64,000 bases of DNA from Halobacteriales archaeon YIM A00010 (GTDB lineage Archaea > Halobacteriota > Halobacteria > Halobacteriales > Haloarculaceae): contig JAKCFJ010000001.1 of NCBI GenBank assembly GCA_025041175.1, positions 2,187,526 through 2,251,525 of the forward strand, given 5' to 3'. Under the pieces are notes generated by a model that was not told the DNA's origin, did not search any database, and saw only the letters and a list, made by a program, of their open reading frames with translations. Positions 7,429 through 53,877 of the stretch are shown here, piece after piece. Made by a program: the position numbers and the translations under genes. The stretch's first letter is position 1. The number at the start of each line of letters is the position of its first letter.

Positions 7429-7552
7429 GCGGAGGCGGTAGCGGTCGCGTGAGTACACTCACCGCGAACGGAGTGAGCGGCTTTTTTTCGCCCACGTTTT
7501 TTGCGCGAGGGTGAGCGAAGCTCACCCGAGCGGAAAAAAGGTGGTGGACGAA
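7429..7552. repeat. T-tract/GTGAGTAC repeat, copy b, with hairpin
   Basis: It reads GCGGAGGCGGTAGCGGTCG, then GTGAGTACACTCACCGCG, then GAGCGGCTTTTTTTCG, CCCACGTTTTTTGCG, a perfect 8-bp stem with GAA loop (7509-7527) and GGAAAAAAGGTGG. It is the inverted partner of copy a. It lies between the divergent starts of the asparaginase and methionine aminopeptidase genes, where a terminator is not expected. Confidence 0.8.
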
Positions 7553-13401: not shown

Positions 13402-13521
13402 ATGGACGGAGCCGGAGGCCGCCCGTGTCCGGTCTGTGAAGAGCCGATGATCCACCGCCACTGCAAGTACGTCTGTCCACATCACGGGATCGTCTACGAC
13501 TGTGCCGACACGTTTTGGTGA
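13402..13521 (+). CDS. 39-residue zinc-finger protein (HVO_2523 type)
   Basis: A very short gene that reads MDGAGGRPCPVCEEP then MIHRHCKYVCPHHG and ends CADTFW. It has two Cys pairs plus His residues for one or two zinc sites, and matches from memory the HVO_2523 family of haloarchaeal micro-proteins. The function is unknown. It follows the reductase gene by 68 bp in the same direction. Its stop codon lies inside the first repeat unit of a hairpin array, and its last 8 coding bases reappear as a hairpin arm downstream. Confidence 0.8.
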   Translation: MDGAGGRPCPVCEEPMIHRHCKYVCPHHGIVYDCADTFW

Positions 13522-13630
13522 CGTTCACGAGAGCAAGCTCTCGTGGGCCAGCCAAAACGCTTCGCGTTTTGGCGACGTTCACAAGATCAAAGATCTTGTG
13601 AGCCAACCGGAACTCGGAGAGTTCCGGTGA
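13511..13630. repeat. Hairpin array 1 (four 9-bp hairpins)
   Basis: Four adjacent perfect hairpins: 13526-13545 (CACGAGAGC, loop AA), 13552-13572 (CCAAAACGC, loop TTC), 13580-13600 (CACAAGATC, loop AAA) and 13607-13627 (CCGGAACTC, loop GGA). All have 9-bp stems. Spacers alternate between a GACGT type and a GCCA type. Stem sequences are unrelated. CGTTTTGG at the end of the preceding gene recurs as the right arm of the second hairpin. Confidence 0.9.
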
Positions 13631-13702
13631 CGTGGTGGACAGCAAACGCTTGCGCCGGGGAGCGAACAAATCATTATTCTGCGGGAGGATGTACAGGGTG
13701 AT

Positions 13703-42526: not shown

Positions 42527-42598
42527 ATGTCCGTATCGAGCGTCGTGACAGACAACGGGTGTCCCTTCGTCCGGTTTCACCACCGTCAGGAGGAATGA
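42527..42598 (+). CDS. Possible 23-residue leader peptide
   Basis: A short frame MSVSSVVTDNGC then PFVRFHHRQEE ending in TGA at 42596-42598. That TGA overlaps the ATG of the winged-helix regulator (ATGA), the coupling layout seen elsewhere in the window. A TATA-like box lies upstream. It contains CAGGAGGAA, which also serves as the ribosome site of the next gene. Being so short, it could be chance. Confidence 0.35.
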   Translation: MSVSSVVTDNGCPFVRFHHRQEE

Positions 42599-43032
42599 CT
42601 GACGGCAGAGAGGGGCAAAGCCCCTCAGGAAACCGGCCGCAGGCCGGTGACAGAGCGGAGCAAAGCTCCGCAAGCAGCCGGGCGAAGCCCGGCGACAGCG
42701 AGGTGCGGGAGGTCGCCGCCCTCCTCGAAGACGAATACACCCATGCGATTCTCATCCACACGAGCACACAGGGGATGTCCGCCACCGATCTGAGCGAGGC
42801 GTGTGACGCGTCGGTCTCGACCATCTATCGGCGCATTGAACGCCTCCAGGAACACGATCTGCTGTCCGAGCAGTTGAATCTCGACCGGGACGGACACCAC
42901 TACAAGACGTACGCGGCACGGCTCGACCGGATCGAGATCGAACTGGTCGACGATGGATTCGAGATCGAGATCACGTACCGGCCCGAGGACGCCGCCGACC
43001 GGTTCACCGATCTCTTCGAGGGGTTACGATAA
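42595..43032 (+). CDS. Winged-helix regulator with hairpin-encoded N-terminal repeat
   Basis: A 145-residue DNA-binding protein. Residues about 38-90 form the winged helix: VREVAALLEDEYTHAILIHTSTQGMSATDLSEACDASVSTIYRRIERLQEHDLL. The ATG at 42595 has GGAGGA just upstream. Residues 5-34 are two copies of a 15-residue unit with pattern R..QS....R...GD, encoded by four 7-bp hairpins. They are absent from what I know of such regulators. Two small membrane genes follow within 1-2 bp, so the three form an operon. Confidence 0.8.
   Translation: MTDGREGQSPSGNRPQAGDRAEQSSASSRAKPGDSEVREVAALLEDEYTHAILIHTSTQGMSATDLSEACDASVSTIYRRIERLQEHDLLSEQLNLDRDGHHYKTYAARLDRIEIELVDDGFEIEITYRPEDAADRFTDLFEGLR
42610..42693 (+). 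repeat. Hairpin array 2, translated in frame
   Basis: Four perfect hairpins with 7-bp stems and 3-base loops: 42610-42626 (GAGGGGC, AAA), 42632-42648 (ACCGGCC, GCA), 42655-42671 (GCGGAGC, AAA), 42677-42693 (GCCGGGC, GAA). Spacers alternate AGGAA, GACAGA, AAGCA, GACAGC. Each pair plus spacers is 45 bp, exactly 15 codons, so the frame stays open. The first hairpin is 15 bases after the ATG. Confidence 0.92.
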
Positions 43033-52325: not shown

Positions 52326-52417
52326 ACGACTGACCGACCGGTTTGGAACGCCACTGTATTGATCGAAGTTGCGCTCGCGGGAACGCAAAAAATCTGCATT
52401 GCAAGAGCGAAGTGGTT

Positions 52418-52641
52418 CGAAAGAGCTTCGCTCTTTCGTCACTGAGCGGAGGGAACCTCCGCGAGGTCCGCAAGAGCAACGCTCTTGCGAGATGCCAAAA
52501 GACGCTCCGCGTCTTTTGTAGCACTCTTGCAGGCTCCCAGATGGACGGAGTCCATCTGAGAGGACCAAAAAAAGCCGCTCGCTCCGCTTCGGCTGCGAAA
52601 ATCGGAGATTTTCGCGCTCCCGAAAACGCGACGCATTTTCG
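52418..52641. repeat. Hairpin array 3 (seven hairpins)
   Basis: Seven hairpins: 52418-52438 (CGAAAGAGC, TTC), 52446-52462 (GCGGAGG, GAA), 52469-52489 (CGCAAGAGC, AAC), 52496-52518 (CAAAAGACGC, TCC), 52538-52558 (CAGATGGAC, GGA), 52595-52615 (GCGAAAATC, GGA) and 52621-52641 (CGAAAACGC, GAC, with one C-A mismatch). All loops have 3 bases. Between the fifth and sixth lies the T-tract part of repeat copy c. Nearby GCAAGAGC (52401) and CTCTTGC (52524) match arms of the third. Confidence 0.9.
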
Positions 52642-52708: not shown

Positions 52709-53272
52709 CTACGATTCTTTGTCAGTCGTCTGAGTAGATCCGTCGGCCTCACCGACGACGTGTGCCAGGTTGGGGTAGCGCTGCCGTAAGCCAGCGAGAT
52801 CACCGCGCTGGCGGTACTGACAGTACTTCGCGAGCGTTGCAACCAGACAGGTGGGAGCGTTCTCAGCATCCGATTTCTCGGTCATGGCGGCTGGCTCGCG
52901 CGAGTCGTCGGGGGTAAACACGGACTGCATCACGTCGCCATCGCGCTGCTCGTGGAAGCGCACGCACGCGCCGTTATCGAACCAGCATTCGACGATCGTC
53001 TCGCCCGCAGCGCAGTAGCGGGTGAACCGCGCGATACCGGGCAGCTCGTCGTAACCGCCCATTGTGGTCGCAAGCCCCGCCGTCGCCAGTATCTGTTCGA
53101 TCTGCATAGCATGCGCGCAGCCGGTCGACTGACAGGACCGACACCAGAGTCCCTCGCCCACGTCGATGCTGTGGTACAGCTCCGCTTTCGACACCACGTC
53201 CCGATCCTCGATGGCCGAGAGGTTGAGCACCTCACCCTGCCGATCCCGGAACTGGAACAACGGCAACGTCAT
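52709..53272 (-). CDS. Hypothetical protein with Cys cluster, between inverted repeats
   Basis: A 187-residue protein. CRSCQSTGCAHAMQ at about residues 44-57 looks like a zinc- or cluster-binding site with three Cys and a His. The middle has WFDNGACVRFHEQRDG, perhaps a beta-sheet. The C-terminal helix reads CLVATLAKYCQYRQRGDLAGLRQRYPNLAHVV. Its ATG overlaps the stop of a 48-residue zinc-finger gene (ATGA). No family recognised. Repeat copies c and d enclose the two genes. Confidence 0.6.
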   Translation of the reverse strand: MTLPLFQFRDRQGEVLNLSAIEDRDVVSKAELYHSIDVGEGLWCRSCQSTGCAHAMQIEQILATAGLATTMGGYDELPGIARFTRYCAAGETIVECWFDNGACVRFHEQRDGDVMQSVFTPDDSREPAAMTEKSDAENAPTCLVATLAKYCQYRQRGDLAGLRQRYPNLAHVVGEADGSTQTTDKES

Positions 53273-53415
53273 CGCCACCACCGCCCCAACGGACACCCCA
53301 TACGGTGTTCGAGCCGCGTGCGAACCGGCCGGCCACACACCTGACAGCGCTGGCGCTGTTCGTTTTTCTGATACGATGCGACACCGTTACATGCCTCTGA
53401 TTCGTTCCCTGTCAT
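53269..53415 (-). CDS. 48-residue zinc-finger protein
   Basis: A short frame MTGNESEACNGVASYQK, then QRCQVCGRPVRTRLEHRMGC and PLGRWWR. The CxxC plus later His and Cys form one possible zinc site. Its TGA (53269-53271) overlaps the ATG of the next gene in the pattern ATGA, the strongest argument that it is real. The composition (Arg-rich) resembles other haloarchaeal micro-proteins. The binding target is unknown. Confidence 0.6.
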   Translation of the reverse strand: MTGNESEACNGVASYQKNEQRQRCQVCGRPVRTRLEHRMGCPLGRWWR

Positions 53416-53737: not shown

Positions 53738-53877
53738 GCGGAGCGGTGAGTACACCCACCGCGAGCGCAGTTCCCGCGAGCGGAGCGAGCGGGAGCAAGC
53801 GAGCGGCTTTTTTTCGCCCACGTTTTTTGCGTGAGGGTGGCCTTCGGCCACCCGAACGGAAAAAAGGTGGTGGGCTA
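53738..53877. repeat. T-tract/GTGAGTAC repeat, copy d, with hairpin
   Basis: GGTGAGTACACCCACCGCG, a variable GC-rich insert, GAGCGGCTTTTTTTCGCC, CACGTTTTTTGCGTGAG, a perfect hairpin with 8-bp stem GGGTGGCC and TTC loop (53835-53853), and GGAAAAAAGGTGGTGGG. The right edge touches the TAG stop of the glucose dehydrogenase gene (CTAG). The T tract read on the minus strand right after that stop could end its transcript. Confidence 0.82.

Follow-up and report, generated by a model that had tools for sequence, protein, structure and literature searches.

Hairpin arrays in a haloarchaeal genome as probable copies of small palindromic repeat families of the class Halobacteria

The explanation that best accounts for the observations as a whole is that the hairpin arrays of Halobacteriales archaeon YIM A00010 are copies of small palindromic repeats belonging to the class Halobacteria; we regard it as probable. 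Their basic unit is two short hairpins with fixed linkers. Three arrays lie in the window, the whole 64,000-nucleotide stretch of DNA analysed here (Table 1). Array 2 is protein-coding, a point absent from the original prediction on this DNA.

The arrays are real. A mechanical scan for hairpins (perfectly paired stem of 7 bp or more, loop of 2-5, gap of up to 15) returned exactly three arrays with four hairpins in each (13526-13628, 42610-42693 and 52418-52518), together with the extra hairpins of the third cluster and both single hairpins that had been described. Such arrays almost vanish from shuffled sequence: in twenty first-order Markov, dinucleotide-based shuffles of the window, the mean number of hairpins in arrays was 0.2 and the maximum 2. 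In 800 kb sampled from the source genome there were 24 arrays of at least two hairpins, versus about two in shuffles; a few of the 24 resemble chance coding hairpins, and the canonical ones are set apart by their spacers.

Table 1. Hairpin arrays, single hairpins and the host gene of array 2 in the window.
Feature	Position (strand)	Composition	Context or basis
Single hairpin	7509..7527 (+)	GGGTGAGC-gaa-GCTCACCC	mechanical scan
Array 1	13519..13633 (+)	hairpins 13526-13545, 13551-13573, 13579-13601, 13606-13628	intergenic
Host gene of array 2	42595..43032 (+)	helix-turn-helix (HTH) protein MTDGREGQSPSGNRPQAGDRAEQSSASSRAKPGDSEVREV...; ATG at 42595	PF12840 match, E 7e-07
Array 2	42604..42699 (+)	two tandem family-1 units, 42604-42654 and 42649-42699; four hairpins	
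Array 3	52412..52525 (+)	GTGGTT-hairpin-TCACTGA-hairpin-GAGGTC-hairpin-AGATGC-hairpin-TAGCAC; four-hairpin form of family 3	intergenic
Hairpin	52538..52558 (+)	CAGATGGAC-gga-GTCCATCTG	inside separate dispersed repeat segment, about 52524-52591
Hairpin	52595..52615 (+)	GCGAAAATC-gga-GATTTTCGC	adjoins array 3; mechanical scan
Single hairpin	53835..53853 (+)	GGGTGGCC-ttc-GGCCACCC	flanked by poly-T and poly-A tracts

Each array belongs to a family with its own architecture. The unit of family 1, to which array 2 belongs, is GAC-AGC-hairpin A-GGCA-hairpin B-GAC (45 nt), with 7-bp stems starting with G/C and 3-nt loops. The array-1 type reads GACGTT-hairpin-GCCA-hairpin, and the spacers GACGTT and GCCA alternate along array 1. 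Family 3, that of array 3, has a two-hairpin form, GTGGTT-hairpin-TCATCA-hairpin-AACGAC, which reads the same on both strands; its fuller four-hairpin copies hold exactly 51 nt more, between TCA and TCA. Across the copies of each family, linkers and outer stem bases are conserved, while the inner 2-3 bp and the triloop vary. The statement that stems share no sequence is therefore correct within the window but does not extend to the genome, where outer stem bases and spacers are conserved per family. The repeat segment next to array 3 has further copies of its own in the source genome and in genome G003, at 94-98% identity.

These families are dispersed through the source genome (5.97 Mb in 7 contigs, analysed as sampled stretches). 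Array 1 has 36 matching stretches there and array 2 has 35, and the array-3 region has up to 59. Five other copies span all four hairpins of array 3 at 88-97% identity, in addition to partial ones, and relatives of array 1 occur on haloarchaeal plasmids from seven genera. The family-1 covariance model (R1) gave 103 matches in the source genome; in the wider sample it matched 254 of 292 genomes of Halobacteria and 66 of their 77 genera. For family 3, model R3 found matches in 134 of 145 Halobacteria genomes (56 of 59 genera). The scan of related haloarchaea that had been proposed thus found the array families dispersed in nearly all the Halobacteria genera sampled. Elsewhere in the phylum, R1 matched 2 of about 203 genomes, both weakly; the E-values come from a shortened calibration. 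One non-halobacterial genome of the same phylum (G441) gave nine weak R1 matches (best E 1.2e-6) and may carry an unrelated hairpin repeat. Among IMG/VR viral contigs there was no exact match to one family-1 and one family-3 pattern.

Two side observations concern this survey. G002 and G006 are entered as two different species; their first contigs share one length (3,915,224) and their gene matches lie at identical coordinates, which suggests duplicate or mixed assemblies. At several Halorubrum loci (L318-L321, L328-L331), an intergenic repeat of about 250 bp holds family-1 hairpins and then runs on as GACTGCCCCTTTGAGTCCCACC.

This distribution bears on the idea that each array was made in place from neighbouring DNA by template switching, as the original prediction had suggested. 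Loop inversions and perfect stems are in keeping with it, as are histidine-kinase arrays that repeat the host N-box NSVEHGS. Linkers, stem bases and boundaries are, however, common to hundreds of unlinked loci in 66 genera, and a purely local origin is accordingly very improbable. The arrays belong instead to dispersed families that occur across the class and keep fixed spacers and boundaries. The arms thought to be re-used from nearby DNA are better read as parts of the element. For example, the start of array 1 coincides with the stop codon (TGAC) that closes a small, zinc-finger-like reading frame upstream; the CGTTTTGGTGACGTT that opens the array overlaps this stop codon and corresponds to the family's right arm plus spacer. 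As the origin of the arrays, local template switching is thus mostly ruled out; it may still account for the turnover of their stems.

Family 1 often lies inside protein genes. Array 2 is in frame at the N terminus of its helix-turn-helix host, and orthologues of this host in three same-genus genomes (G001, G002, G004) are similar only from residue 44-46 on and lack the array. In-frame hairpins also occur elsewhere in the source genome, with seven in PEP carboxylase and two in ATP synthase subunit I, the latter gene being identified by eye. Of 70 loci examined in other genera, 47 are within real genes, as judged by a simple codon-usage score, and all use one of the six frames (+0). Among the 29 best-scoring loci, 25 are coding in frame +0, three are non-coding and the remaining one has a weak antisense call; a second set of 41, which took in weaker matches, has 22 coding loci, all in frame +0, and 19 non-coding. 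Because most loci from other genomes came from among the best-scoring matches, the coding fraction is not an unbiased census. The source genome provides exceptions, with five element matches in frame +1 at three loci, so the frame rule is strong and not absolute. By the same codon score, the ten best loci of family 3 are all non-coding, and this family looks intergenic.

The hosts of family 1 are central-metabolism and translation proteins and include valS (valyl-tRNA synthetase), purA (adenylosuccinate synthase), purD, leuC, lpd and MTA phosphorylase. The encoded peptide has about 15 residues close to DSEEQRSSGSRTQSGD and is hydrophilic and rich in Asp, Ser and Arg. Aligned with solved homologues, dihydrolipoyl dehydrogenase and MTAP carry the peptide as 15 and 17 extra residues, opposite an alignment gap. 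One might suppose that the peptide was selected as a useful hydrophilic linker, the palindromes being a by-product of codon choice, and its composition and single frame agree with this. Perfect pairing is also seen in intergenic copies, however, and synonymous freedom has not been used to break the stems, which leaves peptide selection the least credible of the explanations considered.

Other coding copies were noted in passing. At L316 (G000 C1 near 2,536,100), an IS200-type tnpA frame contains a hairpin-pair insert, NYHFVWC-RKSKIYCSQISDLRC-PKYRHAIL. Histidine kinases of several genera (L322, L327, L336, L346, L349) have tandem SVEHGSTSSR... arrays that start at the N-box NSVEHGS. The DNA of this N-box (GTCGAGC-acg-GCTCGAC) itself makes up hairpin one, as though the array had taken in a piece of its host.

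Filled and empty versions of a single site were compared in the DUF7095 gene, the one gene on which the evidence for this polymorphism rests. The gene was taken from 40 named genomes, of which 32 gave readable sequences. The site is empty in Natronococcus, other outgroups and most Halorubrum species, and it is filled in nine Halorubrum rows by 39, 45, 63, 66 or 87 extra nt, all at one place. The filled H. coriense sequence reads GAG GAC / AGC AAG GGA CGC AGT CCC TCT GGC AGC CGG ACG CAG TCC GGC GAC / GAC GAA (slashes mark the ends of the insert), and the empty H. kocurii sequence reads GTC GAC GAT GAC GAG. On a tree of the gene built with the insert excluded, parsimony requires seven changes, at least four of them on well-supported branches, and the filled H. 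amylolyticum is the sister of the empty H. saccharovorum. The tree therefore points to repeated gain or loss of elements at one site. Hairpin number there ranges from two to four by species. Stems GAGGGAC and GAGGCGC are both present, as are stems with a single mismatch, and loops occur as inverse pairs (TAC/GTA, TGC/GCA).

Stem pairing is almost perfect even when the elements are chosen by sequence. A first count on alignment A1 was circular because perfect pairs had been required, and the count was therefore redone with model R2, which scores sequence only and so does not select for pairing. Among 70 in-register elements, all 14 pairs are Watson-Crick in 59; each of the other 11 has a single mismatch, which is G-T in three cases; these exceptions were counted by hand from the R2 listing, with eight elements of longer stems set aside. 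The same listing has 189 cells that differ from the commonest pair on both sides, versus 11 one-sided cells. On the coding strand, 77 of 156 loops are GNA and 21 are TNC. GNA loops form unusually stable DNA mini-hairpins.

The shape is thus kept while the stem sequence changes, as originally predicted: loops are inverted and both arms altered together, as template switching would leave them. Wobble intermediates are not favoured. This points to DNA, not RNA, as the relevant level and to changes that strike both arms at once. A published study describes multi-base compensatory changes and fully inverted loops as what template switching leaves behind (PMC8794818). The stems probably turn over by hairpin templating on DNA, by template switching or quasi-palindrome correction, with exchange between copies in addition. 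Gene conversion with other copies could be an alternative source of the loop inversions and stem swaps.

Selection for RNA structure, for example in a regulatory or terminator hairpin array, would also preserve shape. The bias of coding-strand loops to GNA is compatible with this, and the conserved linkers could be protein sites. G-U pairs are few, however, and wobble intermediates are not in excess; searches against Rfam gave no match. Furthermore, the intergenic family 3 is self-symmetric and the coding copies occur in housekeeping genes of many functions. We consider an RNA role improbable.

A model of insertion can be proposed from the boundaries of family 1, whose coding copies come after a GAC and close with one. 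A copy would be inserted after a GAC (Asp) codon and would itself end in GAC, keeping the reading frame. As the unit would thereby supply a fresh GAC target, head-to-tail arrays would follow. Module A (24 nt) and module B (21 nt) both have lengths divisible by three, and hairpins would be gained or lost singly in frame; this would explain the constant geometry of coding copies, since single modules keep the frame. After GAC, GRC and then GA. follow in 13 of 44 inserts (hand count), versus 3.4% of GAC codons generally; this bias may be due in part to some loops accepting inserts better than others. GAC is Asp when read on the coding strand, a residue common in halophilic protein surface loops; the opposite strand reads GTC, which is Val. 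Combined with selection against harmful inserts, this difference would explain the bias in frame and strand, and we propose that coding-strand copies survive because Asp-rich loops tolerate them.

What moves the elements is a separate matter, and no transposase or other mover was found. One possibility, to which we give some weight without favouring it, is that the hairpin feet and linkers are recognised by a transposase, either a single-strand one (HUH/Y1, RAYT-like) or another type, which inserts copies 3' of GAC, the elements being miniature REP- or PATE-like passengers. A hairpin with a short tag is like REP and IS200/IS605 ends (PMC3733652; PMC3119063), and the fixed boundaries, target motif and repeated gain or loss also fit. 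Presence of Y1 does not, however, track the presence or copy number of family 1, and we rejected Y1/IS200 transposase as the mover: four Halorubrum genomes (G025, G043, G045, G049) have at least 20 family-1 matches and no Y1 transposase, and four further genomes (G033, G048, G073, G081) have Y1 transposase and no family-1 match. Hairpins near one tnpA were likewise rejected as IS ends. One pair is the in-frame insert at L316 and the other appears inside the end hairpin; both look like targets rather than ends. Family-1 hairpins were clearly at the ends in none of the four Y1 loci inspected in the source genome.

It is also conceivable, though doubtful, that no enzyme is needed. A stalled polymerase with a GAC 3' end would switch to another copy, take up at least one hairpin module from it and return at the next GAC. 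The GAC on either side, the modules of 21 and 24 nt, the repeated gain or loss at one site and the failure to find a mover all agree with such microhomology copying. A homology of three bases would nevertheless not single out the element among all GAC-flanked DNA, and the class-wide conservation of linkers suggests that they are recognised by something. As a tentative extension of the repeat-family explanation, the elements may form a transposase-free, class-wide element that spreads by shape, with modules copied between GAC codons by template switching and stems rewritten pairwise. We hold this with rather low confidence. If true, essential proteins across the Halobacteria would be continually gaining loops, and having them reshaped, through a process based on DNA hairpins.

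A multicopy gene in the window was also observed. At 52709-53338 (-) there is a 209-aa gene with no Pfam match and a CxxC...CxH motif (SWIM-like, by eye). It has about 31 copies on contig 1 of the source genome, 65-86% identical and several with internal stops. A unit of about 1 kb including the promoter region is conserved, and copies are often near intergenic hairpin arrays. From its position near several intergenic arrays of the source genome, this gene may be a candidate mover.

The known kind nearest to the haloarchaeal families is the intragenic palindromic repeats, represented by the RPE of Rickettsia and by REPs. RPE are palindromic repeats in frame in unrelated housekeeping genes, to which they add peptide segments (PMC10969869; PMC3733652). 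Family 1 is likewise in frame and tolerated in unrelated genes, and its insert is absent from orthologues or homologues; RPE thus serve well as a working analogy. RPE are about 150 bp and reported in Rickettsia, and RPE-4 and RPE-6 are CGTC REPs; in contrast, family 1 is a 45-nt, two-hairpin, GAC-bounded unit found across a whole archaeal class, and its stems vary freely. GTAG/CGTC REPs are short conserved-foot stem-loops in dimers and clusters, many intergenic and some in ORFs, and their clusters can encode 43-82 residues; the available part of the account mentions no haloarchaeal family (PMC3733652). The feet of family 1 are GAC-AGC and GGCA, with no GTAG, and its A and B hairpins alternate, although hairpin B, read on the opposite strand, comes after GTC or TGTC, partly like CGTC. 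CGTC REPs have an 8-9 bp stem starting with A/T and a 4-5 nt loop, unlike the 7-bp G/C-started stem and 3-nt loop of family 1. GTAG REPs are associated with RAYT/Y1, which family 1 does not track.

Other comparisons are more distant. The PATEs and SMRs of Haloquadratum walsbyi are haloarchaeal, transposase-free small mobile repeats, and PATEs have near-terminal palindromes; these resemble IS605 ends, and the available part of that report describes no in-frame coding role (PMC3119063). The present families also occur in genomes without Y1 transposase. With respect to MITEs, family 3 has inverted ends (GTSGTT/AACSAC) and family 1 has none; the GAC flanking family 1 may be either a 3-bp duplication or part of the unit. 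PARCEL elements are tandem palindromic protein-coding repeats spread across taxa (PMC2996958). They have 75 nt and 25 amphipathic residues, whereas family 1 has 45 nt, 15 hydrophilic residues and two perfect hairpins. The RNA-gene hairpins of Monttinen and Loytynoja (2022; PMC8794818) show the same multi-base compensatory changes and fully inverted loops. They reflect a mutational process in single genes, whereas in the haloarchaeal families such a process would operate on dispersed repeats, protein genes included. We found no haloarchaeal in-frame palindromic family described in the open literature, with subscription journals outside this coverage, and several family-1 element peptides, searched as text in open papers, gave no hits.

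In-frame palindromic elements are known mainly from a few bacteria, and here they extend across a whole archaeal class. The filled and empty states in sister species provide a natural experiment on protein loops made by repeats and on perfect stem pairing. A systematic cause is also flagged for the odd 15-residue inserts in haloarchaeal proteins. Given that Halobacteria are culturable and genetically tractable, the mechanism is testable.

The single hairpin at 53835-53853 is a distinct recurrent intergenic element, also present beside other repeat loci, and the one at 7509-7527 is probably the same element, as judged by eye. At 53780-53870 and 7500-7530, as at many other loci, the GGGTGGCC-loop-GGCCACCC hairpin lies between CACCTTTTTT and AAAAAACGTGGG tracts, and this intergenic element may be a two-way terminator.
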